Of a stretch of 22,438 nt of DNA, positions 1,952 to 17,407 are shown one piece after another. The DNA is taken from contig JAADBR010000057.1 of NCBI GenBank assembly GCA_009995705.1, positions 1-22,438 on the forward strand, in the 5' to 3' direction. Made by a program: the position numbers and the translations under genes. Below the pieces are notes generated by a model. It saw only the letters and a program-made list of their open reading frames with translations, was not told where the DNA came from and did no database searches. Numbering within the stretch: the stretch's first letter is position 1; each line of letters begins with the position of its first letter. Origin of the DNA: Microcystis aeruginosa W13-11. GTDB taxonomy: Bacteria; Cyanobacteriota; Cyanobacteriia; Cyanobacteriales; Microcystaceae.

Positions 1952-2370
1952 GTTTTTTGGGGATTTGGGGCGATTTTTGGGTTATTTGGGCGCACCAGAG
2001 GGCAAAAAACCCCCGCATCAAGTTAATCTAGATGCCTTTCGAGAAAAATTTTTTTTGCACAGGGAGTCCTTACAATAGAAAAGGGAACACACAACCAAAT
2101 TGCTGGTATTTTTCCTCTGGGCATGGTGGCGCAGTTTATAGAATTTAGCTGGAATTTATGAATCATTTTCTGCATTCTTTCACTGTTTTTCCTGATTCTG
2201 CCCGAAAATCTCGGTCTTACTCCCTAGGTAAACTGCGACGACCCTTAATCTTCCTGTTTACCGTCGGTTGTCTGACTAGCGTGGTCGGTTATCGTTTCTA
2301 TAATCAGCCGAAATTGGCCGTCGGGACTATTTCCCCCGTCACAATTATCGCCCCCGAAGATGCCAGTTTT
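1952..2370 (+). repeat. Direct duplication, copy 2 (intact context)
   Basis: This is near-identical to 761-1158, as described there, and carries the 21 bases missing from copy 1. It runs directly into the complete HD-phosphohydrolase coding sequence, so this is the functional copy. Confidence 0.9.
2071..2076 (+). promoter_or_regulatory. Candidate -10 element for the HD-phosphohydrolase gene
   Basis: TACAAT lies 81 bases before the ATG and is preserved in both duplicate copies. The expected -35 position is only T-rich. It is the best promoter candidate for the HD/DUF29 transcription unit, but the evidence is modest. Confidence 0.4.
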
Positions 2371-4506
2371 GAAGACCAAGAAACCACCGACTTCAAACGC
2401 CAAAAAATTCGGGCTGGACTGCTTCCCCGACTGAAAAGAGACCCCCAAACCACTGCCGAGATTGAGCGATCGCTACGGGACACCTTAGGGCAATTAAGTC
2501 AAATTAGCCCAATTCTGCGAAAAAATTCGATTTTACTGAGCAGGACTATTTCTAACGCCACGCTGGGAACGCTACTCACCTTTTCTGCCGCTCAATGGTC
2601 AACTCTACAAAGCGGCCTTAACTATGAAGAATCTTTTGCAAAACCCTTGACAAAAGAACAGGAATATGCTAAACAGGAAATCCAAGCCTATCGTCAGCGC
2701 GTGACGAAGGGAAACTTTGGGCAATTTATTGATCGATTAGGGGAATTACGGCAAATACAGGAGCAAACCAGCCAAAATTATCGGCATTCCAGCTTAAATA
2801 AACTCAAATACGCCGATCTGATCGCAGTGGCCCAAATGGGCGATCGAGAGTGGCAAAACCTAGAAAAAGCCGTCCTGCAAGCGGGGCGCCGGATTTTGGT
2901 GCAAGGCGTTCCCCCGGGGATTTCCACCAGTCACCTACAGGATACCATCGCCGTGCAGATTAGCAGCGATCGCCTAAACCGTCGTCAGCAGCTTTTAGCT
3001 GAAAATATCCTTCTGGCGGTCCTAGAGGGACAAACGAACCTGATAGAAGATCGAGAGGCCACCAAAGAACAAGCCACTAAAGCGGTGGAAGCGATAGACA
3101 TGGTCATGTCTAATGCTCAAACCGGTCAAATTATCGTTAAAGCAGGCGAAAAAATTACTCAAGCTCAGTTTGTTCTCATCGATGGCTTTGGTTTAAGCGA
3201 ACGGGGCATTAACTGGATGGGTTTAGGGTCAACGGCAATCCTTGTCACCGGTGTGATCGGGACTTTTTGCCTCGTGGCCCAGCGTCTCCATCGGCCTCTG
3301 CGTCACCGGGATTTTCTTCTGTTGGGTTTACTAAGTTTTACCACACCGATCCTAGCGATCGCCCATATTCCCTTTACCAATCTGGCAGCCGTGGGTTTAT
3401 TAGTCAGCAGTTTCTATGGCCCGACTCTGGCCGTCACCCAAGTCCTCTTAACTGCCGGTCTTTCCCTATTCAGCATCCAAGGCATCAGCGCCGATTTAAT
3501 CGCGGGGACGATTGGGGGACTAATAGCAGCCATGATAGCGGCAAAATTGCGCTCCCGGGATGAATTATCGCTCCTAGGGATGGGCATCGGAGTCAGTCAA
3601 GGGGGTGTTTATCTGCTCACTTACCTAATCGTTAGCGCCACGGCCAGCACGATCATCTATGCTCTACTACCCACGGCGCTCGTCTATGGTCTATCGGGGA
3701 TAGCTTGGACAGTAATCGCCCTAGGATTATCCCCCTATCTAGAACGCTGTTTCGATGTGGTCACTCCCATTCGTCTGGTGGAGTTGTCCAATCCTAATTG
3801 TAGTTTGCTCAAACGTTTGGCCACGGAAGCACCGGGTACTTTTCAACATACCCTTTTTGTCGCCTGTTTAGCGGAAGCGGCCGCCCGAAAACTGCACTGT
3901 AATGTGGAATTAATTCGCACGGGAACCCTCTATCACGATATCGGGAAAATGCACGATCCCCTCGGTTTTATTGAAAATCAAATGGGTGGCCCGAATAAAC
4001 ACGATGAAATTAACGATCCCTACGTCAGCGCCGAGATTATTAAAAAGCACGTTAGCGAAGGGTTAGTCATGGCCCGCAGACACGGTTTACCGCGAGTGGT
4101 TCGCGATTTTATTCCCGAACACCAAGGCAATCTCTTAATTTCCTATTTTTATCAGCAAGCTTTGCAAAAATCCAGGCAAAATGGTCAAGAAATCATCGAT
4201 GAGGCGGCCTTTCGCTACGATGGTCCGATTCCCCAATCGCGAGAAACTGCGATCGTCATGTTGGCCGATAGTAGCGAGGCTGCTTTGCGATCGCTGAAGG
4301 AGGCATCCCCAGAACAAGCTATGGATATGATCAAAAAGATTTTTCAGGCCCGATGGCGCGATCAACAATTAGTAGATAGTGGTATTCGTCAGGAGGAATT
4401 ACCAATTATTGCTGAGGTTTTTGTGCAGGTTTGGCAACAATTCCACCATCAACGCATTGCCTACCCGAAAGCAGTTTTAGAAGTCTCCTCAGCCGAAAAA
4501 ATATGA
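2158..4506 (+). CDS. 7TM-HD family membrane phosphohydrolase (PgpH-like, probable c-di-AMP phosphodiesterase)
   Basis: This encodes 782 residues. The order is a short cytoplasmic tail, a first membrane helix at about 30-48, a large extracytoplasmic 7TMR-HDED-like domain at about 50-350, a multi-helix membrane region at about 351-545, and a C-terminal cytoplasmic HD domain at about 560-710. The HD metal ligands are visible: His564 in GTFQHT, His593-Asp594 in YHDIGK, His655 in PEHQG and Asp704 in LADSSEA. This is the architecture of PgpH, which hydrolyses the second messenger c-di-AMP to pApA in Firmicutes. Cyanobacteria carry an orthologue, but the substrate here is inferred. The start is supported by the duplicate at 967, which preserves the same ATG. 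The stop overlaps the next start as ATGA, so the following gene is translationally coupled. The first ~65 codons are duplicated upstream. Confidence 0.88.
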   Translation: MNHFLHSFTVFPDSARKSRSYSLGKLRRPLIFLFTVGCLTSVVGYRFYNQPKLAVGTISPVTIIAPEDASFEDQETTDFKRQKIRAGLLPRLKRDPQTTAEIERSLRDTLGQLSQISPILRKNSILLSRTISNATLGTLLTFSAAQWSTLQSGLNYEESFAKPLTKEQEYAKQEIQAYRQRVTKGNFGQFIDRLGELRQIQEQTSQNYRHSSLNKLKYADLIAVAQMGDREWQNLEKAVLQAGRRILVQGVPPGISTSHLQDTIAVQISSDRLNRRQQLLAENILLAVLEGQTNLIEDREATKEQATKAVEAIDMVMSNAQTGQIIVKAGEKITQAQFVLIDGFGLSERGINWMGLGSTAILVTGVIGTFCLVAQRLHRPLRHRDFLLLGLLSFTTPILAIAHIPFTNLAAVGLLVSSFYGPTLAVTQVLLTAGLSLFSIQGISADLIAGTIGGLIAAMIAAKLRSRDELSLLGMGIGVSQGGVYLLTYLIVSATASTIIYALLPTALVYGLSGIAWTVIALGLSPYLERCFDVVTPIRLVELSNPNCSLLKRLATEAPGTFQHTLFVACLAEAAARKLHCNVELIRTGTLYHDIGKMHDPLGFIENQMGGPNKHDEINDPYVSAEIIKKHVSEGLVMARRHGLPRVVRDFIPEHQGNLLISYFYQQALQKSRQNGQEIIDEAAFRYDGPIPQSRETAIVMLADSSEAALRSLKEASPEQAMDMIKKIFQARWRDQQLVDSGIRQEELPIIAEVFVQVWQQFHHQRIAYPKAVLEVSSAEKI

Positions 4507-4970
4507 AAAGAGATACTTGGCTAAATCAGTTACAATTTCTCTACGAACAAGATGAACATCTCTGGTTGACTGAAACAATTAAACTCCTCAAGGAAAATCG
4601 TCTAGCCGAGTTAGATATTCAACATTTAATCGAGGAGTTGGAGGCTTTGAGCAAACGGGATAAAAATCGAGTTGAGAGTTTTTTAAGACAGATAATTATT
4701 CATCTTTTGCTGTGGCAATATTGGTCAGAAGAATTTGAATTAAATCATCGGCATTGGCAAGGAGAAATAGCCACTTTTAGAGTTCAGCTAAATGGATATT
4801 TCAGCACAAATCTAGAAAAATATCTCCTAGATAACCAAGAAAGAATCTATCAAGATGCTGTTTTTATTGTCGGACAAAAAACTGAAATATCTCCTCACAA
4901 TTTTCCTCTAAATTGTCCCTATTCCCTCGAACAAATGCTTGATAGGCATTGGTTGCCAGAGCGAAATTAG
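4503..4970 (+). CDS. DUF29 family protein
   Basis: This encodes 155 residues from the ATG at 4503. A longer TTG-initiated frame exists, but this ATG is chosen because it gives the usual DUF29 N-terminus (WLNQLQFLYEQDEHLWLTET) and a 4-base ATGA overlap with the HD-phosphohydrolase stop. Typical DUF29 features follow: LDIQHLIEELEALSKRDK, then a helix FLRQIIIHLLLWQYW, and a C-terminal segment with NCPYSLEQML. DUF29 proteins are helical, about 140-160 residues long, very abundant in cyanobacteria, and of unknown function. The coupling to the HD gene may reflect co-regulation or recent insertion; the sequence does not decide. Confidence 0.85.
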   Translation: MKRDTWLNQLQFLYEQDEHLWLTETIKLLKENRLAELDIQHLIEELEALSKRDKNRVESFLRQIIIHLLLWQYWSEEFELNHRHWQGEIATFRVQLNGYFSTNLEKYLLDNQERIYQDAVFIVGQKTEISPHNFPLNCPYSLEQMLDRHWLPERN

Positions 4971-5008
4971 TTAAATCCCACGGGAAAAAATCAAAAATAA
5001 TTACTAAA

Positions 5009-5650
5009 ATGCTACTAATTACTCTCAACGAAAATACTTTATCTTTATCTCCGGGCAGTCAAGTTATTTTTCCCCATCAGACTTGGGAAGATTACGAAAG
5101 ATTGCTGAATTTACGTCTCCATAAAACCTATCCCAAACTCTATTTTAATCGCAAAACTCAAGAAATTCGGCTTATGTCTCCCCTACCAAGTCATGGCAAT
5201 CGTGTTGATACATTAAGAGATTTAGTAAAAATTATCCTCCGTCGTCAAGGTAAAGACTGGCAATGTTTCGATCCCATTACCTTGAAAATGCCGGGGGAAG
5301 CGGGAGTAGAGCCAGATACTTGTTTTTATATTGATAATAGACAGGCAATTTTAGGCAAAGAAAGAATTGATTTAACTGTTGATCCTCCTCCCGATTTAGC
5401 TATAGAAGTGGATTTTACTTCTCTGACTGATGTAGAGGCTTATCAATTGTTGAAAATACCTGAATTGTGGGTTTATCGTCGGGAAGAATTAAAAATATAT
5501 TTGTTAATAGAAGACAGTTATCAAGAAAGGGAAAATAGTCGTCTCTTTCCCGATATAAATATCAAAAAACTTTTTCCCTATTATGTTGAATTAGGCTGGA
5601 ATCAAGGCTCTAGTCTTGCTTTACGTCAATTTGAAGCTTTAGAGAATTAG
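5009..5650 (+). CDS. Uma2 family endonuclease-like protein (variant group)
   Basis: This encodes 213 residues from the ATG at 5009, chosen over an upstream TTG because the Uma2-like sequence begins with MLLITLNENTLSLSPGSQVI. Uma2 proteins have a PD-(D/E)XK-like restriction-endonuclease fold and are hugely expanded in cyanobacteria; their biological role is unsettled. Seen here are VEPDTCFYI (first acidic site), PPPDLAIEVDF (second acidic strand) and a C-terminal IPELWVYRRE. The usual S-x-S/T, D and K residues after the EV strand are replaced by FTSLTDVEAYQLLK, so this belongs to the divergent EVD-type branch and may differ in catalysis. It lies 38 bases after the DUF29 gene and converges with the next Uma2 gene. 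Confidence 0.8.
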   Translation: MLLITLNENTLSLSPGSQVIFPHQTWEDYERLLNLRLHKTYPKLYFNRKTQEIRLMSPLPSHGNRVDTLRDLVKIILRRQGKDWQCFDPITLKMPGEAGVEPDTCFYIDNRQAILGKERIDLTVDPPPDLAIEVDFTSLTDVEAYQLLKIPELWVYRREELKIYLLIEDSYQERENSRLFPDINIKKLFPYYVELGWNQGSSLALRQFEALEN

Positions 5651-5685: not shown

Positions 5686-6258
5686 CTATACCAAACCGGG
5701 GACTTTGCGATAGATAGAAGAGATCGATCCCCAGAATCCTACACTGGTAAATTCTACCTCATCTCCCGCTTCATAGATCTGTTCTTGCCAAACTCCTGAA
5801 TCCTCGCGACGGTGACATTCAATTTTCATCTGGTTTTGATGAATAAGAATATATTCTTTTAAGGTGGGACAGGTTTGATAATCGCTAAATTTATCACCCC
5901 TATCAAAGGATTCCGTAGATTTCGATAATACTTCAATAATCAGAACGGGATAAAGAATAAAATCATCGGTATTGTTAATCTCTCTCTCGTCACAAACCAC
6001 CGCAATATCAGGATAATAATAACAATTTGCCTCCTCTAACCGGACTTTGATATCGGAAGTGAGAACAAGACAGGGACTATCATCGAGATGGATACTCAAT
6101 AAAGTGGCTAGATTTGTATTTAAGACAATATGGGGCTTTTTTGCCCCTACCATCGCATAAATCCGTCCTTTTCGGTACTCGCGCTTGATCGGACTGACTC
6201 TTTCCCCTTCTAGATACACTTCTGGAGAGACATAAAAAAAATTAGGATTCGTCACCAT
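5686..6258 (-). CDS. Uma2 family endonuclease-like protein (canonical group)
   Basis: This encodes 190 residues on the minus strand, with ATG at 6258-6256. It shows the canonical Uma2 pattern: an N-terminal SPEVYLEGE...EYRKGRIYAM segment, a middle helix ending HIVLNTNLATLL, then YYYPDIAVV, LIIEVLSKSTESFDRGDKFSDYQ and a strand EYILI. The Asp of PDIAVV, the Glu of IIEV and the Lys of GDKF are the expected PD-(D/E)XK-like residues, so it may be catalytically competent, unlike its divergent neighbour. It is convergent with the other Uma2 gene, with 35 bases between the stops, and divergent from ileS. Confidence 0.85.
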   Translation of the reverse strand: MVTNPNFFYVSPEVYLEGERVSPIKREYRKGRIYAMVGAKKPHIVLNTNLATLLSIHLDDSPCLVLTSDIKVRLEEANCYYYPDIAVVCDEREINNTDDFILYPVLIIEVLSKSTESFDRGDKFSDYQTCPTLKEYILIHQNQMKIECHRREDSGVWQEQIYEAGDEVEFTSVGFWGSISSIYRKVPGLV

Positions 6259-6458: not shown

Positions 6459-9317
6459 ATGTCCAACGCTAAAAGTTACAAAGATACCGTTAATTTGCCT
6501 CAAACTGACTTTGATATGCGAGCAAATGCCAGCAAACGTGAGCCAGAACTGCAGAAATTCTGGCAAGATGAGCAAATATACGAGAAATTAGCGCAAAATA
6601 ACCCCAAAGAATTATTTATTCTCCACGATGGTCCTCCCTACGCTAACGGGTCCCTGCATATCGGTCATGCTTTAAATAAAATTCTCAAAGACATTATCAA
6701 TAAATATAAACTGCTGCAAGGCTACAAAGTGCGCTATGTGCCGGGTTGGGATTGTCACGGGTTGCCGATCGAACTAAAGGTTTTACAAAGTCTCAAAAGC
6801 TCGGAAAAAGAGGGTCTAACCCCTTTGAAATTACGTCAGAAAGCCCACGATTTTGCCCTTCAAACGCAAAAAGAGCAGTGTGAAGGTTTCAAAAGGTATG
6901 GAGTCTGGGGAGACTGGGAAAATCCCTATTTAACCCTACAACCTGAATACGAGGCCGCTCAAATTGCCGTATTCGGAAAAATGGCCCTAAAAGGTTATAT
7001 TTATCGGGGACTAAAACCGGTTCACTGGAGTCCTAGTTCTCAAACCGCTTTAGCTGAGGCAGAATTAGAATATCCCGAAGGTCACACTTCCCGCAGTGTC
7101 TATGTTGCTTTCCCAATTACGTCGGTTTCAACCCCGGTTTTAACGCCATTTTTGCCTAATTTATCCGTGGCTATCTGGACGACTACTCCCTGGACTTTAC
7201 CCGGGAATTTGGCCGTCGCATTAAATCCAGAATTAAACTATTCAGTGGTAGAAACTAGCGAGTCTAATTATCTAATCGTAGCGACGGATTTAATCGAAAA
7301 ATTGGCCGACACTTTTAACACAACTTTGACGATTAAAGCAACGGTTAAAGGTCTGGAATTAGAACATACTAAATATCGTCATCCTTTGTTTGACAGAGAA
7401 AGTGCTATTCTCATCGGTGGGGATTATGTCACCACCGATTCCGGCACTGGATTAGTTCATACTGCTCCCGGTCATGGTCAGGAGGATTATATCGTCGGCC
7501 AACGTTACGGTTTACCGATACTTTCTCCCGTGGATGATAAGGGAAATTTCACTGCAGAAGCGGGACAATTTGCGGGTTTAAATGTCTTGAAAGATGCTAA
7601 TGAAGCAATAATTTTAGCACTGGCAGAAAAGGGTGCCTTACTCAAAGAAGAAGCATATCAGCATAAATATCCCTACGATTGGAGAACCAAAAAACCGACA
7701 ATTTTCCGCGCAACAGAACAATGGTTTGCTTCTGTGGAAGGATTCCGGGAATTAGCTTTAGAAGCGATTGATTCGGTGCGTTGGATTCCTGCAACGGGGA
7801 AGAATCGCATTACTTCTATGGTCAGTGAAAGAAGCGATTGGTGTATCTCTCGTCAGCGCAGTTGGGGGGTTCCTATTCCTGTTTTTTATGACGAAGAAAC
7901 AAATGAACCTCTGTTAAATGAGGAAACGATTAATCACGTGCAAGCTATCTTCGCAGTCAAGGGTTCTAATGCTTGGTGGGAGTTATCGGTAGAGGAATTG
8001 TTATCTCCCAGTTATCGCGATAATGGTCGCAGTTATCGCAAGGGAATGGATACCATGGATGTGTGGTTCGATTCTGGTTCCAGTTGGAATGCGGTGGCTA
8101 ATGCTCGACCAGAATTAAGTTATCCTGCGGATATGTATCTAGAAGGATCGGATCAGCATCGGGGATGGTTTCAATCGAGTTTATTAACCAGTGTGGCTGC
8201 TAATGGTATTGCTCCCTATAAAACGGTGTTAACTCACGGTTTTGTTTTGGATGAACAGGGACGAAAAATGAGTAAATCCCTGGGTAATGTCATCGATCCC
8301 AATGTGATCATTAATGGAGGTAAAGACCAGAAAAAAGAACCCGCTTATGGGGTGGATGTGATTCGGTTATGGGTGTCCTCGGTGGACTATACCAATGATG
8401 TGAATATTGGTCAAAATGTTCTTAAACAGTTGGTAGATATCCGTAATAAAATCCGTAATACTGCTCGGTTTTTACTGGGGAGTTTAAATGATTTTGATCT
8501 CGTTAAAGATGCGGTAGCTTATCAGGACTTACCAGAGATTGATCGCTATATGTTACATCGTATCTCGGAAGTGTTTACGGAAGTTACGGCAGCTTTTGAA
8601 AGTTTCCAATTTTTCCGCTTTTTCCAGACGGTACAGAATTTTTGTGTTGTCGATTTATCTAACTTTTATATCGACATCGCTAAGGATCGTTTATACATTT
8701 CTGATCCTAATTCTTTCCGTCGTCGCAGTTGTCAAACAGTCTATGCTATTGCTTTAGAAAATCTCGCTAAAGCGATCGCTCCTGTCCTGTCTCATCTAGC
8801 GGAAGATATCTGGCAATTTCTCCCCTACAAAACTCCTTATTTATCGGTATTTGAGTCAGGATGGCTAAACATCGATCCTGCTTGGAATAATCGCCAATTA
8901 GCCGATAAATGGGCGAAATTCCGGCAGCTACGCACCGAAGTTAATAAGGTGATGGAAACTGCCAGAAATGATAAAGCGATCGGTGCTTCTTTAGAGGCAA
9001 AAGTTTTACTTTATGTTCCCGATGAAACCTTACAACAGGAGTTAGAATTATTCAACAATTGTGATAGCTTGACGGGGAATAAAGTCGATGAATTGCGTTA
9101 TCTATTTCTCTCTTCTCAAGTGGAATTAGTTAGGGATATTAGCGCGATTCAAACCGCAGAATATAAGGGAGAATCGGACTTTGTTTCGGTGGGAATTGTC
9201 AAAGCAGACGGCGAAAAATGCGATCGCTGTTGGAATTATTCCACTCAAGTGGGAAATTTTGCCGATGATCCCACTATTTGCGAGCGCTGTAATGCCGCTT
9301 TAAAAGGAGAGTTCTAA
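6459..9317 (+). CDS. ileS: Isoleucyl-tRNA synthetase
   Basis: This encodes 952 residues, the usual length for bacterial IleRS. This class Ia enzyme charges tRNA-Ile with isoleucine in the cytosol. The HIGH signature is at residues 67-70 within PYANGSLHIGHALN, and WDCHGLPIE follows. The CP1 editing domain shows TTTPWTLPGN from residue 241 and the VHTAPGHGQEDY block, so proofreading of valine should be intact. KMSKS is at residues 603-607. The C-terminal zinc-binding module has Cys921, Cys924, Cys941 and Cys944, as in E. coli-type IleRS. The ATG start gives a normal N-terminus of MSNAKSYKDTVNLPQTDFDM. The gene stands alone, with inverted repeats in its leader and a strong terminator just after it. 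Confidence 0.98.
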   Translation: MSNAKSYKDTVNLPQTDFDMRANASKREPELQKFWQDEQIYEKLAQNNPKELFILHDGPPYANGSLHIGHALNKILKDIINKYKLLQGYKVRYVPGWDCHGLPIELKVLQSLKSSEKEGLTPLKLRQKAHDFALQTQKEQCEGFKRYGVWGDWENPYLTLQPEYEAAQIAVFGKMALKGYIYRGLKPVHWSPSSQTALAEAELEYPEGHTSRSVYVAFPITSVSTPVLTPFLPNLSVAIWTTTPWTLPGNLAVALNPELNYSVVETSESNYLIVATDLIEKLADTFNTTLTIKATVKGLELEHTKYRHPLFDRESAILIGGDYVTTDSGTGLVHTAPGHGQEDYIVGQRYGLPILSPVDDKGNFTAEAGQFAGLNVLKDANEAIILALAEKGALLKEEAYQHKYPYDWRTKKPTIFRATEQWFASVEGFRELALEAIDSVRWIPATGKNRITSMVSERSDWCISRQRSWGVPIPVFYDEETNEPLLNEETINHVQAIFAVKGSNAWWELSVEELLSPSYRDNGRSYRKGMDTMDVWFDSGSSWNAVANARPELSYPADMYLEGSDQHRGWFQSSLLTSVAANGIAPYKTVLTHGFVLDEQGRKMSKSLGNVIDPNVIINGGKDQKKEPAYGVDVIRLWVSSVDYTNDVNIGQNVLKQLVDIRNKIRNTARFLLGSLNDFDLVKDAVAYQDLPEIDRYMLHRISEVFTEVTAAFESFQFFRFFQTVQNFCVVDLSNFYIDIAKDRLYISDPNSFRRRSCQTVYAIALENLAKAIAPVLSHLAEDIWQFLPYKTPYLSVFESGWLNIDPAWNNRQLADKWAKFRQLRTEVNKVMETARNDKAIGASLEAKVLLYVPDETLQQELELFNNCDSLTGNKVDELRYLFLSSQVELVRDISAIQTAEYKGESDFVSVGIVKADGEKCDRCWNYSTQVGNFADDPTICERCNAALKGEF

Positions 9318-9327
9318 GCTAAACTAA

Positions 9328-9363
9328 AAGGGTACTTTATTGTCTAATAAAGTACCCTTGTTT
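9328..9363 (+). terminator. Intrinsic terminator after ileS
   Basis: A perfect 14-base-pair stem (aagggtactttatt / aataaagtaccctt, arms 9328-9341 and 9346-9359) with a 4-base loop is followed by gttt. It starts 11 bases after the ileS stop. The stem is symmetric enough to work in both directions. It isolates the accessory gene pair downstream. Confidence 0.85.
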
Positions 9364-9420
9364 AATCCTCAGCTAAAAACTTATTCACAGATATTGACTC
9401 TAGGGAATAGATAATTAGGG

Positions 9421-9843
9421 ATGGAAGATTACCAATCAGCTTTTTTACAACGTCATCAAGATACAGAAATACTTTGTAAATCTAATGGGAAAATAGCTGC
9501 TATGCACTTTGGAGGTATTACGATCGAATGTTTGCTGAAATCTATGATCTTAGCTTCGGTATCCAATAAAGAATGGAAAACTAAGTCCAATAACCCCGGA
9601 CATACCATAACTAATCCGGGTCACAGTTTTACAGCTGCTCTAAGAAGTCATAATCGTCTCTATTCGAGAGTTCAAAAATTTCCAGAGGTGATAAAATGGA
9701 TTAATATAGTAGAAAATCCTAGTCAAAATTTTATAACTATGCGTTATTCCAGCAGTGAACCGAATGACGATGAATACAAGCAGTGGTTATCAGCTTATAC
9801 AAGTCTGAAACAATGGCTTCATAAACAAGCTACTCAACTTTGA
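9421..9843 (+). CDS. HEPN-like helical protein, partner of the KGGVGR ATPase
   Basis: This encodes 140 residues, predicted mostly helical. The pattern RHQDTEILCKSNGKIAAMHF followed by GITIECLLKSMI is typical of HEPN-superfamily proteins (a long first helix with His-x-Asp, then an ECLLK helix). NPGHSFTAAL and an ITMRYS segment fit later helices. A canonical RX4-6H ribonuclease motif is not apparent, so it may be a non-catalytic or divergent HEPN. The stop overlaps the Shine-Dalgarno-like GAGGAG of the next gene, and only 10 bases separate the stop from the next ATG, so they form an operon. By analogy with HEPN/MNT and other two-gene conflict modules it could be the effector or a regulatory subunit. 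The family call is my inference and has not been searched. Confidence 0.55.
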   Translation: MEDYQSAFLQRHQDTEILCKSNGKIAAMHFGGITIECLLKSMILASVSNKEWKTKSNNPGHTITNPGHSFTAALRSHNRLYSRVQKFPEVIKWINIVENPSQNFITMRYSSSEPNDDEYKQWLSAYTSLKQWLHKQATQL

Positions 9844-9853
9844 GGAGATAGTT

Positions 9854-11035
9854 ATGTCAGAAACTTGGTTAAGATTACTGAAACAAAAATTAACAGATAT
9901 ATATGTGCAGAAAAAAGCACAAGAATGGGTTGATCTCAATGTATCTACTGCTGGACTTTTGAATATAACTATCATTAGTGATAGGTTTGAAAATTTATCA
10001 ACAACTCAGCGAATAGAAGCAGTTAAAAATGACATAGGACAACAGCATAAATCTTTAGGTTTTATATCTTTATATACTATTCAGGAGGCAGCCTCTCTCG
10101 ATCTAAAAGCTCCACAACTTCTGGACGCAAAATCAATTCACACTTGGCAGGATTTAGCCTTGTGGTCAGCTAATCCACAAAATCAATCACCGTCTTTTCC
10201 CGAACTTTGTCTTCCTAGAACCGTAACTTTTTATTCTTTTAAAGGGGGAGTAGGTAGGACAACTGCTTTAATTCATGTTGCTTGGATTTTAGCGATGCGA
10301 GGTCGTAAAGTAGTAGCTGTTGACTTGGATTTAGAAGCACCGGGGTTAAGCACAGCTTTTCCCTTAAATCCCTTACCGGAATACGGAATTGTGGACTATT
10401 TTTATGAAAAATCCTATTTACCAGAAGGTGTAGAAGCAAAGATTAATATCACTAAAATATTTGGAGAAGTTAATATTCCCGATACAACGGGAAGACTATT
10501 TATTGTTCCTGCGGGTTATTTGAGTCTTGATTACATTACTAAAGTTGACGATCTGCGAGCAACAACAATTCTCGATAATGGGGAAACACTCTGGTCAACT
10601 TTTAGTCGAGAGATTCAAAATCAGTTAAAACCTGATCTTATCTTAGTAGATTCGTGTACTGGAATCAATGAATGGGGAGCTTTATCTTTACTACAGGCAG
10701 CCAACAAAGCAATTATTTTTTTATTTCCTAACGAACAAAATCAAAAAGGAATCGAGCTTGTTTTGAAATCTTTGACTTCTTTTGTTCGACTTTCGCTTAA
10801 TTTTGTTTTTTCACCCGTTCCCGATTTAAGTGATACGGGAATAAATAAAGTTACCCATACTTGGCAAATTTTACAAAAAGATATTGACAAAAATATAGAT
10901 ATAGATTCAGAAGACTATCTAATCATACCTTATATCCCCTCGATCGCTCTAGCAGACCGTTATCCTGTCACTGGATTACTGGATTATTATGCTCCCATTG
11001 CTAACTTAATCGATGAAGATACCAATTTTCAGTAG
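9854..11035 (+). CDS. KGGVGR-type ParA/MinD-like ATPase with N-terminal BolA-like segment
   Basis: This encodes 393 residues. Residues about 125-390 form a SIMIBI/ParA-type P-loop ATPase. The deviant Walker A is YSFKGGVGRTTA with KGGVGRTT at 130-137; a Walker A'-like DLDLEAPG is at 157-164, and Walker B LILVDS has Asp266. The Arg replaces the Lys of the usual KGGVGKTT, which defines the KGGVGR-variant group often found in defence-type neighbourhoods. The first ~85 residues read like a BolA domain: ITIISDRFENL, an Arg ten residues on, then ISLYTIQEA, matching BolA SDRF...LHTYTIKEW. The conserved His that follows that Arg in BolA is absent. The ATG follows a good GAGGAG ribosome-binding site. 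It is probably the nucleotide-dependent sensor or switch for the HEPN-like partner; this role is inferred. Confidence 0.75.
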   Translation: MSETWLRLLKQKLTDIYVQKKAQEWVDLNVSTAGLLNITIISDRFENLSTTQRIEAVKNDIGQQHKSLGFISLYTIQEAASLDLKAPQLLDAKSIHTWQDLALWSANPQNQSPSFPELCLPRTVTFYSFKGGVGRTTALIHVAWILAMRGRKVVAVDLDLEAPGLSTAFPLNPLPEYGIVDYFYEKSYLPEGVEAKINITKIFGEVNIPDTTGRLFIVPAGYLSLDYITKVDDLRATTILDNGETLWSTFSREIQNQLKPDLILVDSCTGINEWGALSLLQAANKAIIFLFPNEQNQKGIELVLKSLTSFVRLSLNFVFSPVPDLSDTGINKVTHTWQILQKDIDKNIDIDSEDYLIIPYIPSIALADRYPVTGLLDYYAPIANLIDEDTNFQ

Positions 11036-11209
11036 ATAGCATCCGAGAGATAAATTTCCCTCTTGACCAAGTTGGTAGAGCAAGTTTCTTTGTTCTATGT
11101 TAAGATGTTGGTGACTTCGTTTTTGGGTCTGATTTGTTGTTGTATTGATCGGATAGTACCTGATGAGCCTTTTTTAGAGATTTTATAGATATTAGCAGGG
11201 ATAAAAATT

Positions 11210-12319
11210 ATGGTTAATTATCTCACTCAAGAAGAGAAATTACTAGCAGCCGAAGAAGAAAAGTATCTAGAGGAAGAAGATGATGTGGATTTTCTTCCTC
11301 TAGATATTATTGCTTACAATGAGCAGCGATCCTGCTCTGATCTAGTTAGAATGTATCAAAAAAAACAATTGGTTATCGATCCAGATTTTCAAAGAGATGT
11401 GGTGTGGAGTGAGGCACAACAAACTCGTTTTATTGATAGTTTAATGAAACAGTTACCGATTCCTAGTATGTGTATTAGTCTTGACTATAAGACAGATAAA
11501 CGCTATATCATTGATGGATTACAACGAATTAGTACCATCGTCAAATTTTTAACTACTGAAAATTGGAAGCTATCAAAATTAGCTGATGTAGATTGGTCTA
11601 TTTCTGGAAAAACAGTTGAAGAAATAAAAACTCAGCATGAAGAATTATATGAACGCGTAGAAAATATGACTATTCCCATCACCATGATTCGCTATGACTC
11701 CAGCAAAAAAACTCATAATAATTATATTTTTAACATTTTCCATCGCTTAAATACTGGTGGAGTAAAACTCAATAATCAGGAGATCAGAAATTGTATCTAT
11801 AATGGCGAGTTTAATACTTTTTTAAAAGAATGCGCTCAATATGAAAACTGGCTTTTGCTGATGGATCGAAAGCAGCAAAAAGCATCTCGATTTGAAGATG
11901 AAGAATTAGTACTTCGTTTCTTTGCTTTTTATGATGAATACAACAACTACAAGGGGAAATTGACAGGATTTTTAAATGATTATATGGATAAACATAAATC
12001 TGCCCACGAAGATTTTATTCAAGATAAAGATCAATTATTTAAGCAAACTGTTGACTTGATTTATGATAGAATCTTCAAAAAGGAACCTCTCAAAACCAGT
12101 AAAGTTATTGCTGAGGGAATTCTCTTAGGAGTTGCCAAGAATTTAGGTACTTTAGTCAATCTCTCCAATGATGAATTACAAGACAAGTATTCTAGATTAA
12201 TAAAATCTGAACCATTTTTGACTAAAAATTTAGCTGGTGGTATTTATCAAAAAGATAAGGCTTTAGAGAGAATTAATACATCTATTAAAATTTTTTCATC
12301 TACTGGTAATGATTACTAA
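11210..12319 (+). CDS. DUF262 (GmrS-type ParB/Srx-fold) protein
   Basis: This encodes 369 residues. The N-terminal third matches DUF262: an acidic leader, then IDPDFQRDVVWSEAQQTRFI (Phe60-Gln61-Arg62), LPIPSMCISL and the nucleotide-handling motif IIDGLQRISTI. The usual DGQQR is DGLQR here (102-106). Further on, IFHRLNTGGVKLNNQEIRN is the second hallmark block. DUF262 is the GmrS-like NTPase/sulfiredoxin-fold module of Type IV restriction enzymes and several other phage-defence systems; here the GmrD-type HNH domain (DUF1524) is missing. The stop lies 11 bases inside the following HEPN gene, so the nuclease part is probably supplied in trans by that partner. A separate promoter may exist in the 174-base gap upstream; none is clear. 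Confidence 0.85.
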   Translation: MVNYLTQEEKLLAAEEEKYLEEEDDVDFLPLDIIAYNEQRSCSDLVRMYQKKQLVIDPDFQRDVVWSEAQQTRFIDSLMKQLPIPSMCISLDYKTDKRYIIDGLQRISTIVKFLTTENWKLSKLADVDWSISGKTVEEIKTQHEELYERVENMTIPITMIRYDSSKKTHNNYIFNIFHRLNTGGVKLNNQEIRNCIYNGEFNTFLKECAQYENWLLLMDRKQQKASRFEDEELVLRFFAFYDEYNNYKGKLTGFLNDYMDKHKSAHEDFIQDKDQLFKQTVDLIYDRIFKKEPLKTSKVIAEGILLGVAKNLGTLVNLSNDELQDKYSRLIKSEPFLTKNLAGGIYQKDKALERINTSIKIFSSTGNDY

Positions 12320-12812
12320 AAGTTATTTATTCAAGACGCTAAACAGGCTTGATAAACTCTATAATGACCCTACAGCTGATGATCAAAAAACTTCTTCTTA
12401 TTCTAAACTAGCTCTTATAGAATTATGTGGCTGGATCGAGGAAACTATGGATGATATAGTTTTAAGATGTGCTAAACGATGCTTAAAGTCCCCAGTTAAC
12501 CTAAAATTCATCGATAAGACTGTTCATAATACTAATAGTTTTGAATATGAAGCTTTTAGAAAAATGTTGATGATGGTTATTGGTTTAGCAACATTAGAAA
12601 AAATCGAAGAAAAGTTAGAAAAAACTGATAAAATTAGTGCTTTAAAAGGTGATCTTGGTAATCTAAAGACAAGTCGCAATCGAGCGGCTCATACTCATAC
12701 TAAAGGTACTTTGACAACTTATGGCGCTCCTTCTAAAACTAAATATAATTTTGATAGAATATATGCTTTGTTAACAGAGTTAGATGCAGAATTGCAACGT
12801 CATAAATGTTGA
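12309..12812 (+). CDS. HEPN ribonuclease-like protein paired with DUF262
   Basis: This encodes 167 residues, all-helical in appearance. It resembles the HEPN groups that cap or accompany defence proteins (RiboL-PSP or MAE_28990 type): LALIELCGWIEETMDDIVLR in the first half and a canonical RX4H motif RNRAAH with Arg123 and His128 in the second. In HEPN RNases these residues form the metal-independent active site. It overlaps the upstream DUF262 gene by 11 bases, giving tight translational coupling. The pair would make a compact sensor-plus-RNase system. The exact Pfam family is uncertain. It is the last gene of the accessory block before ridA. Confidence 0.72.
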   Translation: MITKSYLFKTLNRLDKLYNDPTADDQKTSSYSKLALIELCGWIEETMDDIVLRCAKRCLKSPVNLKFIDKTVHNTNSFEYEAFRKMLMMVIGLATLEKIEEKLEKTDKISALKGDLGNLKTSRNRAAHTHTKGTLTTYGAPSKTKYNFDRIYALLTELDAELQRHKC

Positions 12813-12965
12813 CTTATTTCTCGTACAATCGCTTTTAGCGCATCTTCGACAAAGACAATCAGTCAAAATTAAACCCCCCCGATCAGCGAAAATTAACTGT
12901 AAGTGATCGAAAAACTGGGAAAATATTCAATTGATTAAATGTCATCTTTTTTAACTATCCTGCCC

Positions 12966-13355
12966 ATGAATAATCAGGTCATTCGTACTGATAAAGCTCC
13001 GGCCCCTGTGGGTCCCTATAATCAAGCGATCGCCGCTCCTGGTCCTTTTCTCTTTGTTGCGGGACAAATTCCCCTAGATCCCGTTACGGGTGAAATCGTC
13101 TCTGGGGAAATTAGCGGCCAAACCGAACAAGTTATGGCCAATCTAGAGGGCATTTTAACCGCTGCAGGAGCCAATTGGTCAAATGTGGTAAAAACTACCG
13201 TCTTTCTCTCGGATTTAGCCAATTTCGGGGCGATGAATCAAGTTTATGCCCGTTATTTCCCCCCAGAAACCGCCCCGGCCCGGGCCTGCGTGGAGGTGGC
13301 CCGTCTTCCCAAAGATGTGCTAGTGGAAATAGAATGTATTGCCGCTTTAGCCTAA
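12966..13355 (+). CDS. ridA: RidA family reactive enamine/imine deaminase
   Basis: This encodes 129 residues from the ATG at 12966. An in-frame ATG at 12939 would add MSSFLTILP, which is not conserved, so the later start giving [18 protein letters not shown] is preferred. RidA hydrolyses reactive 2-aminoacrylate and related enamines from PLP enzymes, protecting branched-chain and other PLP-dependent pathways. Signature features are [19 protein letters not shown], the catalytic Arg106 in [14 protein letters not shown] and Glu121 in LVEIECIA. Length is normal. It converges with rpoC1, and a shared hairpin lies between them. Confidence 0.95.
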
Positions 13356-15832: not shown

Positions 15833-17407
15833 TTAAGCAGGAGTTAAGGCTTTTTTCTTAATTGGTGCGGTTAAAGCGGATTCTAAATCGGCTTTCCCTA
15901 GTCTTGTTTCTAAAATTTTTAGCACTTCCCGTCCAAAATCATCGGGATTTTGTTGCCATGCTTGCAGACAAATTTCGCCAAAGAATGACCCCAAAGGTTG
16001 GGGATTCCAGAGCAGTTTTTTGGCTGTCCAGGGCATTAAGCTCATGGGATCATAGTTGGGTTTAATAATTTCTTTTTTGAGGGCGTATTCTTCTAGATGG
16101 GTGTGGGGTTGTAGGCCGATAAAAAAGATGGCTGGTTCCACTTTATCGATTCCAAAAATGTTTTCTAGTTCCCGATGATAGGCGATGGTTTGGCGAATAG
16201 TTTCTAGGGTTTCATCAATGACGTTAAAGGAATAATTTACTGAAACTAGATCATTAAAGCCTGCGGCTTTTAAGTCTCGACAATTTTGCAGAACTGTGCG
16301 CAAATTATAGCCCATGCGCATTTTTCGGACTAATTCCTGAGAGCCACTGGTGATGCCAATTTCAAAGTAGTTCATGCCTGTTTTTACCATTAAATCGCAC
16401 AGTTTTGGAGTGAGGTTATCGGCACGAATATAGGCTGCCCAATGGATATCTTTCATCCCGGTGGCAAGGATTTTTTCTAATAGTTCTTCTACGTTGTTGA
16501 TAAATTTTTTGGTGGGGATAAATTGGGCATCGGTAAACCAGAAGTTGCGAATGCCGCGGTCGTATAATTGGCGTATTTCTTTAACTACTTCGTCGGCGGG
16601 GTTAATGCGTACTTGTTTGCCTTCGACTACGGTGTAGATGCAGTAGCAGCAGTTATGGGGACAGCCGCGCTTGGTTTGTACGCCGATATAAAAGTCGTTT
16701 TCTTGGAAGTAGTAGGAGATTTCTGGCCAAATACTGGTGATGTAGTTGTAGTTACAAGCGGATTTTTCTAAGGGGGTGGGGGATTCGTGGATTAAACGCG
16801 GCCGGGGTGTGGTTTCTCCGACTATATAACAGCGTTCATTGCTAAGGTCTTGGCTGGAGAGGAATTTTTCTAGCAGGGTTTCTCCTTCTCCGACTGATAC
16901 GATTGTTCCTGTGGGCAGTTTGGTTTTTAGTTGTTCGTAGAAAACGCTGACGGCACCACCCCCGACGATAGCTCGCGCTTCGGGATGGTGTTTTCTGGCC
17001 TGCTGCAACCCGCGGCGAATTAGTCTCTGATTGCGCCATAATTCGCTGTAGTAGGCGGTTGTCACTTTTAAGCCTCCTAAGGCACCGCGCATTTTGATTA
17101 GGGGGTTTTTAGCGTAGTAAAATTCAAAGGCGTTTTGCAGGGGATTACCACCACGACCACCGACGGGAGCATATATTTGAATGTCCCGCCAGGAGAATAC
17201 TAGCAGGGTGGGCCGAAATTCGTTAACACAGCGATGGAGTGCTTGGTTAATGTCTAAGGGGGGGACGGTGCTAAGGTCAAGGATTCTTTGTTCGATGTCG
17301 GGGAAGTGTTTATGAACGTGGTCGGAAAGGTAGGCTACGCCGATGGGGAAAATGGGGTTGCAGGGTAGTCTAACGTAGAGGATGCGTTGTGCTTGCGGTT
17401 GAGTCAT
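15833..17407 (-). CDS. B12-binding domain/radical SAM protein
   Basis: This encodes 524 residues. The N-terminal ~200 residues fit a cobalamin-binding-like Rossmann domain (RILYVRLPCNP, TLLVFSWRD, AIVGGGAVS, VSVGEGETLLEKFL). A radical SAM domain follows: the 4Fe-4S ligands are Cys249, Cys253 and Cys256 in KRGCPHNCCYC. RNFWFTDAQF and MNYFEIGITSGSQELVRKMR are typical later blocks. Such enzymes generate a 5'-deoxyadenosyl radical. The substrate is unknown; members occur widely in cyanobacteria, including ones annotated as lipid-biosynthesis or photosystem-related, but I cannot choose between these. The ATG at 17407 follows a good sigma-70-like promoter at 17477-17505. The 3' end abuts the WD40 remnant on the same strand. 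Confidence 0.88.
   Translation of the reverse strand: MTQPQAQRILYVRLPCNPIFPIGVAYLSDHVHKHFPDIEQRILDLSTVPPLDINQALHRCVNEFRPTLLVFSWRDIQIYAPVGGRGGNPLQNAFEFYYAKNPLIKMRGALGGLKVTTAYYSELWRNQRLIRRGLQQARKHHPEARAIVGGGAVSVFYEQLKTKLPTGTIVSVGEGETLLEKFLSSQDLSNERCYIVGETTPRPRLIHESPTPLEKSACNYNYITSIWPEISYYFQENDFYIGVQTKRGCPHNCCYCIYTVVEGKQVRINPADEVVKEIRQLYDRGIRNFWFTDAQFIPTKKFINNVEELLEKILATGMKDIHWAAYIRADNLTPKLCDLMVKTGMNYFEIGITSGSQELVRKMRMGYNLRTVLQNCRDLKAAGFNDLVSVNYSFNVIDETLETIRQTIAYHRELENIFGIDKVEPAIFFIGLQPHTHLEEYALKKEIIKPNYDPMSLMPWTAKKLLWNPQPLGSFFGEICLQAWQQNPDDFGREVLKILETRLGKADLESALTAPIKKKALTPA

Follow-up and report, generated by a model that had tools for sequence, protein, structure and literature searches.

The window, that is, the whole 22,438-nucleotide stretch of Microcystis aeruginosa W13-11 DNA analysed here, carries two plus-strand modules between ileS, which ends at about position 9317, and ridA, which starts at 12939. 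The first comprises two open reading frames on the same strand, separated by a 10-base gap, which encode a 140-residue protein with a predicted HEPN fold (9421–9843) and a 393-residue short-form ATPase (9854–11035). The second, which neighbours the pair and lies outside it, comprises a DUF262/GmrSD_N protein resembling PD-T4-2_A (11210–12319, plus strand; PADLOC, E = 5.6e-156) and a RiboL-PSP-type HEPN protein resembling PD-T4-2_B (12309–12812, plus strand; E = 1.3e-96). An earlier note, made from the letters of this DNA, had given the spacing of the two frames and their setting between ileS and ridA beside a second HEPN pair; both descriptions hold, the second pair being PD-T4-2-like. The note also placed a strong terminator here. 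A 14-pair inverted repeat does lie just 3′ of ileS (9328–9359; stem-loop scan), but only four of its 14 pairs are G–C, its terminator-like score is on the minus strand only and the region 9250–13000 holds three terminator-like matches against 1.9 expected from shuffling.

Structure prediction models the 140-residue protein as a HEPN helical fold, as the earlier note had proposed, and the PADLOC model PDLC04558 (PDC-M28A) matches its residues 2–113 (E = 3.7e-7). No Pfam family was found for it at E values up to 10, and PDB searches with the single sequence and with the family profile returned no HEPN match; the assignment is based on the predicted structure, on motifs in the family alignment and on relatives within the family that match PF05168. 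Residues R11, D14, E36, K40, H68, R108 and Y109 are invariant in the family, and R108, H68 and E36-x3-K40 are kept in all 41 HEPN sequences. The canonical Rx4-6H RNase motif is present at the conserved R108 in none of the 41. An Rx4-6H string lies somewhere other than R108 in 32 of them, and R23 occurs with H29 in 26; the window protein lacks this combination and carries G23 in place of the usual R23, as the only one of the 41. The family has the features that the available part of PMC3710099 gives for the alternative active site of HEPN-T proteins, namely a retained arginine, a second conserved histidine N-terminal to it and an Ex3[KR] motif. It differs from the HEPN-T family itself (AF0298-type; PDB entry 2hsb) in the additional invariant R11 and D14, and the window protein has no direct Pfam match. 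The invariant H68 and R108 are candidate active-site residues, and the protein is probably an RNA-cutting HEPN protein.

Residues 1–81 of the ATPase (9854–10096, plus strand) form a domain with the order helix–strand–strand–helix–strand–helix. The note's suggestion that this N-terminus reads like BolA is borne out for the fold over approximately 81 residues: a profile of 25 N-terminal sequences, searched against 177,635 distinct PDB sequences, placed BolA-family entries at ranks 1–10 (best E = 9.6e-4), and in Foldseek ranks 1–17 were all BolA-family. A plain single-sequence PDB search with the ATPase gave no BolA match, and with Pfam PF01722 the full-length protein of locus L002 reached 12.2 bits, below the cut-off of 25.7, the window protein not being listed. 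The domain shares with the BolA family (PF01722) its fold, the order of its elements and the V-S-x-x-F and T-x-x-E positions, which line up between the two. It differs in being joined to a ParA-type ATPase and in its histidines. When 25 distinct cyanobacterial BolAs were aligned to it, the three histidines invariant in all 25 fell on L35, I54 and G69 of the window domain, and none of 25 BolA-like domain sequences has a histidine at any of these columns. The last of the three histidines is the Fe–S ligand in BolA. Because all three are absent, the domain is BolA-like by fold and, judged by its sequence, not a working Fe–S BolA. A retained BolA role, whether glutaredoxin or Fe–S cluster binding or redox or iron sensing, would accord with the shared fold and the detectable sequence relationship to BolA; given three columns empty of histidine in 25 of 25 sequences, we regard it as very improbable and set aside as unlikely the iron–sulphur role that the note had mentioned for BolA domains in general. 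A separate, ordinary BolA gene is also present in 36 of 39 genomes of near relatives, and the available text of PMC11742926 offers a precedent for a BolA-like domain in another role, in the Toxoplasma mitoribosome.

The following domain, of the ParA/SIMIBI type (residues 121–307; 10214–10774, plus strand), belongs to NF047398, the 'KGGVGR-motif variant AAA ATPase' (E = 6.4e-49; 166.9 bits, cut-off 90). Its P-loop (residues 130–137; 10241–10264, plus strand) reads KGGVGRTT in place of KGGVGKTT, as noted earlier, and since the protein matches NF047398 this is a recognized family feature and not a one-off. Among 39 aligned ATPases K130, which we take to be the ParA-type signature lysine, is invariant, and position 135 is arginine in 33 and cysteine in six. 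The PDC-M28B model PDLC04559 matches residues 121–348 (E = 1.1e-37), the N-terminal part of the model being unmatched.

The note's picture of a two-domain ATPase is not the normal form of the family. Proteins of this branch are mostly of about 870–926 residues, a few of 667–821, and the usual chain of about 890 residues carries a second P-loop domain (C) after the BolA-like domain and the ParA-type KGGVGR ATPase. The L002 protein (Microcystis LEGE 91341; 888 residues) matches PDC-M28B over residues 115–364 (E = 8.1e-41) and PDC-M28C over 597–886 (E = 5.3e-31). Tentatively, the C domain is ORC/Cdc6-like: it matches an ORC/Cdc6-type protein weakly in the PDB (E = 0.012), and that of locus L046 matches PF24389 'ORC-CDC6-like' below the cut-off (E = 2.8e-4). 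PDC-M28C had no match among the four window proteins scanned and tblastn found no remnant in the whole window; the C protein being absent, the window holds A and B and not the full PDC-M28 set.

Judged from these matches, the pair is a candidate form of the PADLOC candidate phage-defence module PDC-M28. The A and B models match the window, and A, B and C are all matched across the branch (B and C in L002). In the sister loci L070, L074, L077 and the second copy in L003, neighbouring genes encode A, B and C separately, with C matches of 1.7e-74 to 1.1e-81; in this branch, by contrast, one gene encodes B and C together, and C is missing from the window copy. The N-terminus of the sister B proteins is different, and the PADLOC B model covers them nearly from the start, whereas the best B match in this branch starts at residue 121 (window) or 115 (L002), so that the BolA-like part is left uncovered by the model. 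A BolA-like domain was sought in the sister B proteins (the same four loci and L080) and gained no support (hhalign probability of 0.2 against BolA).

The HEPN and ATPase genes co-occur, as the note's proposal of a two-gene module implied. The ATPase alignment supplied 80 loci, the best 80 of the list. Among the 56 of these that could be tested, having a BolA-like N-terminus (by an HMM built partly from loci then counted) and at least 600 bases upstream, 54 carry a HEPN gene immediately before the ATPase gene, and L037 and L056 do not; L020 and L021 did not enter the count, having too little DNA on that side, and one strain is represented by two contigs, L053 and L054. Eighteen other KGGVGR proteins, 16 of them of 564–665 residues, have no BolA-like domain, and among the matches listed none of the 18 has a HEPN neighbour by the HMM used, which missed the diverged HEPNs upstream of the L003 second copy and L080 that PDC-M28A finds (E = 1.4e-11 and 1.2e-6). 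A separate set of 146 cyanobacterial genomes, independent of these loci, includes ten with the BolA-like domain, and each of the ten has a HEPN match immediately upstream. A strong HEPN match (E values up to 1e-30) occurs in 12 of the 146, nine of them within those ten and the others being G035, G096 and G124, where an ATPase of 890–892 residues stands directly downstream; the two genes are therefore found together in 12 of 12. These three ATPases belong to a second branch, whose N-terminus matches less strongly; compared by hhalign, this branch scores 97.8% against the first branch and 82.5% against BolA.

Some further loci depart from the intact arrangement. The HEPN frame of G161 (L182, 2895–3323) is broken by an in-frame stop, and G014 (L091, 1501–1743) has an 80-residue HEPN fragment without an ATPase. 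In Halanaerobium (L037, 7959–10313) a 784-residue BolA-like ATPase has no HEPN neighbour and the next gene appears to carry its own P-loop, possibly a partner swap.

Within Microcystis the HEPN gene is present in eight of 12 genomes, which with the window makes nine loci. The ATPase is full-length in three (G007, G008 and G012) and short in six (G002, G005, G009, G010, G011 and the window). Compared with G012, the short alleles have lost about 1.69 kb and all resume at one identical downstream position; separate origins of the short form are rejected because the six share this deletion edge. In the window the junction region closes the short ATPase gene at 11019–11050 (plus strand; comparison with L128), and in L125 the deletion edges share eight bases. 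A further in-frame loss of 30 bases is common to the window, G002 and G005. The six short alleles do not group together in the B gene tree despite their common edge, so recombination is likely.

The window copy may be a reduced A+B form, or it may be decaying. That it is a remnant, the C domain having been deleted and what is left no longer a working system, is possible, though we are inclined to doubt it. Such decay would fit a single deletion common to six of nine loci, the absence of any C remnant from the window, the G23 of the window HEPN protein, and residue 268 in the D-S-x-T-G motif of the ATPase (codon 10655–10657, plus strand, from the allele alignment), which is cysteine in all six short alleles but arginine in all three full ones and in 27 of 39 proteins of the wider alignment. 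It would also fit the 892–910-residue open frame kept by all ten BolA-domain genomes of the cyanobacterial sample. Against it, the A and B frames are open in all six short alleles, without a stop or frameshift and with every indel in frame, and dN/dS for the B gene is not higher in the short alleles (0.40; 0.25–0.68) than in the full ones (0.50; 0.23–1.27), although the substitutions may predate the deletion. The short alleles thus show constraint in B, some of which may be older than the deletion; for the HEPN gene dN/dS is 0.85 (0.45–1.85) in short and 0.78 (0.32–2.69) in full alleles. Calothrix sp. NIES-4105 (L019, 7959–9278) likewise has a HEPN gene with a short ATPase and no trace of a C domain, a form that seems to have arisen separately from the Microcystis deletion.

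The interval between ileS and ridA is an exchange site in Microcystis at which PD-T4-2, PDC-M28-like and BanI-type restriction–modification modules alternate. The 3′ part of ileS (8400–9318) is 97–98% identical to that of 12 same-genus genomes, and the interval (window 9359–12862) is occupied in all 12 and in the window. PD-T4-2 stands alone in G001 and G004; G003 and G006 carry a DNA methylase and a restriction enzyme of the BanI type; the full module stands alone in G007 and G008 and together with PD-T4-2 in G012; and the short module accompanies PD-T4-2 in five genomes and the window. In four module-free genomes (L117, L119, L120 and L122) the match to G012 ends at window position 9359, at the hairpin after ileS, which forms the left edge of the exchangeable segment. 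On the other side the match resumes about 77 bases before ridA in L119, L123 and L124, by analogy with which the right edge in the window is the flank at 12862–12938; in G004 and G010 it resumes a little way into ridA. The available text of PMC9519451 reports that PD-T4-2 protects against T4, by deletion in its native strain, and the alternation supports a defence setting well at this site.

Elsewhere this setting, which the earlier note had called typical of conflict or anti-phage systems, did not show as an enrichment. The neighbourhoods, reaching 5 kb from each of 34 non-Microcystis loci, contained 257 genes, and the 100 closest were scanned with PADLOC at 1e-20. The controls were 261 genes in 20 arbitrary regions of nine cyanobacterial genomes, 100 of which were scanned in the same way. 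The scan found five families per 100 neighbour genes against 21 per 100 control genes, one member each in both sets, with 11 of the 21 control families on one gene; it is a coarse comparison, in which the cases include non-cyanobacteria and the controls none, and the genomes and threshold were chosen by the analyst. Two individual loci do point to defence. In L080 (1459–9005; Spirochaetales) the module, a PDC-M28A-like gene with a B–C fusion, lies inside a type I restriction–modification locus, between the specificity and restriction genes. In L003 the BolA-type module is preceded on its contig, at a distance of about 2.2 kb, by a second, three-gene PDC-M28 set (A, B and C; 2060–5379), which was beyond the 100 genes scanned.

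Several further observations concern such sites. In G004 (L120, 2102–2986) and G010 (L126, 4053–4937) the HEPN gene of PD-T4-2 (PD-T4-2_B) continues in frame into ridA, giving a protein of 294 residues; PADLOC model PDLC04030 may derive from such a fusion, since it is 294 long and the window protein matches its first 165 positions only. In G005 (L121, 3981–4474) the PD-T4-2_B gene looks broken, as it is split across two frames. A copy of about 75 bases of the ridA upstream flank lies 3′ of the full module in G012 (L128, 4151–4225), a sign of stepwise insertion beside ridA. In L070, L077 and L181 the module versions differ (separate B and C, or fused BC) and the two adjoining genes are the same, an obg GTPase (PF01018 in L070 and L181, a look-alike of the same size in L077) and a gene for 376 residues; this obg-side site is probably a second exchange site.

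The note knew of no described system of this kind. That claim holds in part, since the module type is already known as a database candidate through PADLOC PDC-M28A/B/C and the idea of HEPN with ParA is published: the available text of PMC3710099 predicted dyads of a HEPN protein (MAE_18760 family) and a ParA/Soj-like, SIMIBI-type ATPase in 2013. These dyads share the two-gene pairing with the present module. That text lists Rx4-6H as conserved in the MAE_18760 family, whereas the motif is absent here at R108, and it does not mention a BolA-like or second P-loop domain. In the open-licence literature we found no publication naming PDC-M28, none on KGGVGR and none joining a BolA domain with HEPN; BolA with phage defense and P-loop gave nothing related by title, the two apparent BolA mentions among the HEPN, ParA and antiphage papers listed were the author names Bolam and Boland, and the available part of the BREX paper contains no BolA, MinD or SIMIBI. 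Within that literature, the new elements are the BolA-like domain and the loss of its histidines, the alternative active site of the HEPN family, the deletion common to the short Microcystis alleles and the exchange site. PDC-M28, so far only a named database candidate within these searches, gains for one of its branches a domain anatomy (BolA-like head, ParA-type ATPase, second NTPase and HEPN-T partner), which makes its function directly testable.

With roughly even confidence, we read the pair as a HEPN effector (A) and an NTPase controller (B), a candidate defence module of the PDC-M28 form. The earlier idea of an ATPase that responds to a cue and controls its HEPN partner is plausible. 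Normally, one controller chain of about 890 residues would form a complex with a small HEPN-T protein and keep it silent. A cue derived from an invader would be sensed by the BolA-like part, the C-terminal part or both, and would alter the nucleotide state or dimerization of the controller; HEPN subunits would then be released or paired, and would cut or bind RNA and so halt growth. Of this picture, computation shows the folds, the conserved pairing, the invariant H68 and R108, the missing BolA histidines and the exchange at ileS–ridA, whereas the RNase activity, the complex, the cue and the sequence of steps are inferred. It is a speculative and, in our estimate, rather unlikely extension that a ParA-type NTPase switching a HEPN RNase has recruited the histidine-less BolA fold as its head, either to sense or to contact RNA or DNA, this fold detecting invasion or docking the effector, with a minimized A+B form kept in part of Microcystis. 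The module would also be an instance of a BolA fold serving outside Fe–S metabolism, and the full-length and shortened alleles within one genus are a natural experiment on the purpose of the second NTPase domain.

The main rival is a toxin–antitoxin pair, in which a HEPN toxin would be neutralized by the ParA-like ATPase through binding or modification (for example phosphorylation) and would serve plasmid or island maintenance or a stress response instead of phage sensing. The part of PMC3710099 available postulates this for the MAE_18760-family dyads; the HEPN gene comes first and the controller second, with a short gap or overlap; and Nostoc sp. UHCC 0870 carries a plasmid copy. In all, six plasmids match, one of them across 98% of the protein; phage records gave no match. 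Two NTPase domains and a BolA-like domain in most controllers go beyond the needs of a simple antitoxin, however, and the exchange with known defence modules at ileS–ridA also speaks against this explanation, which we consider rather unlikely overall. The effector–controller reading is preferred.

Two further minus-strand genes in the window have PADLOC matches: a Uma2-family gene (PF05685) at 5686–6258, matching PDC-S03 (E = 5e-26), and that of a 524-residue protein at 15833–17407, with a weak match to PDC-M51A (E = 4.3e-12).
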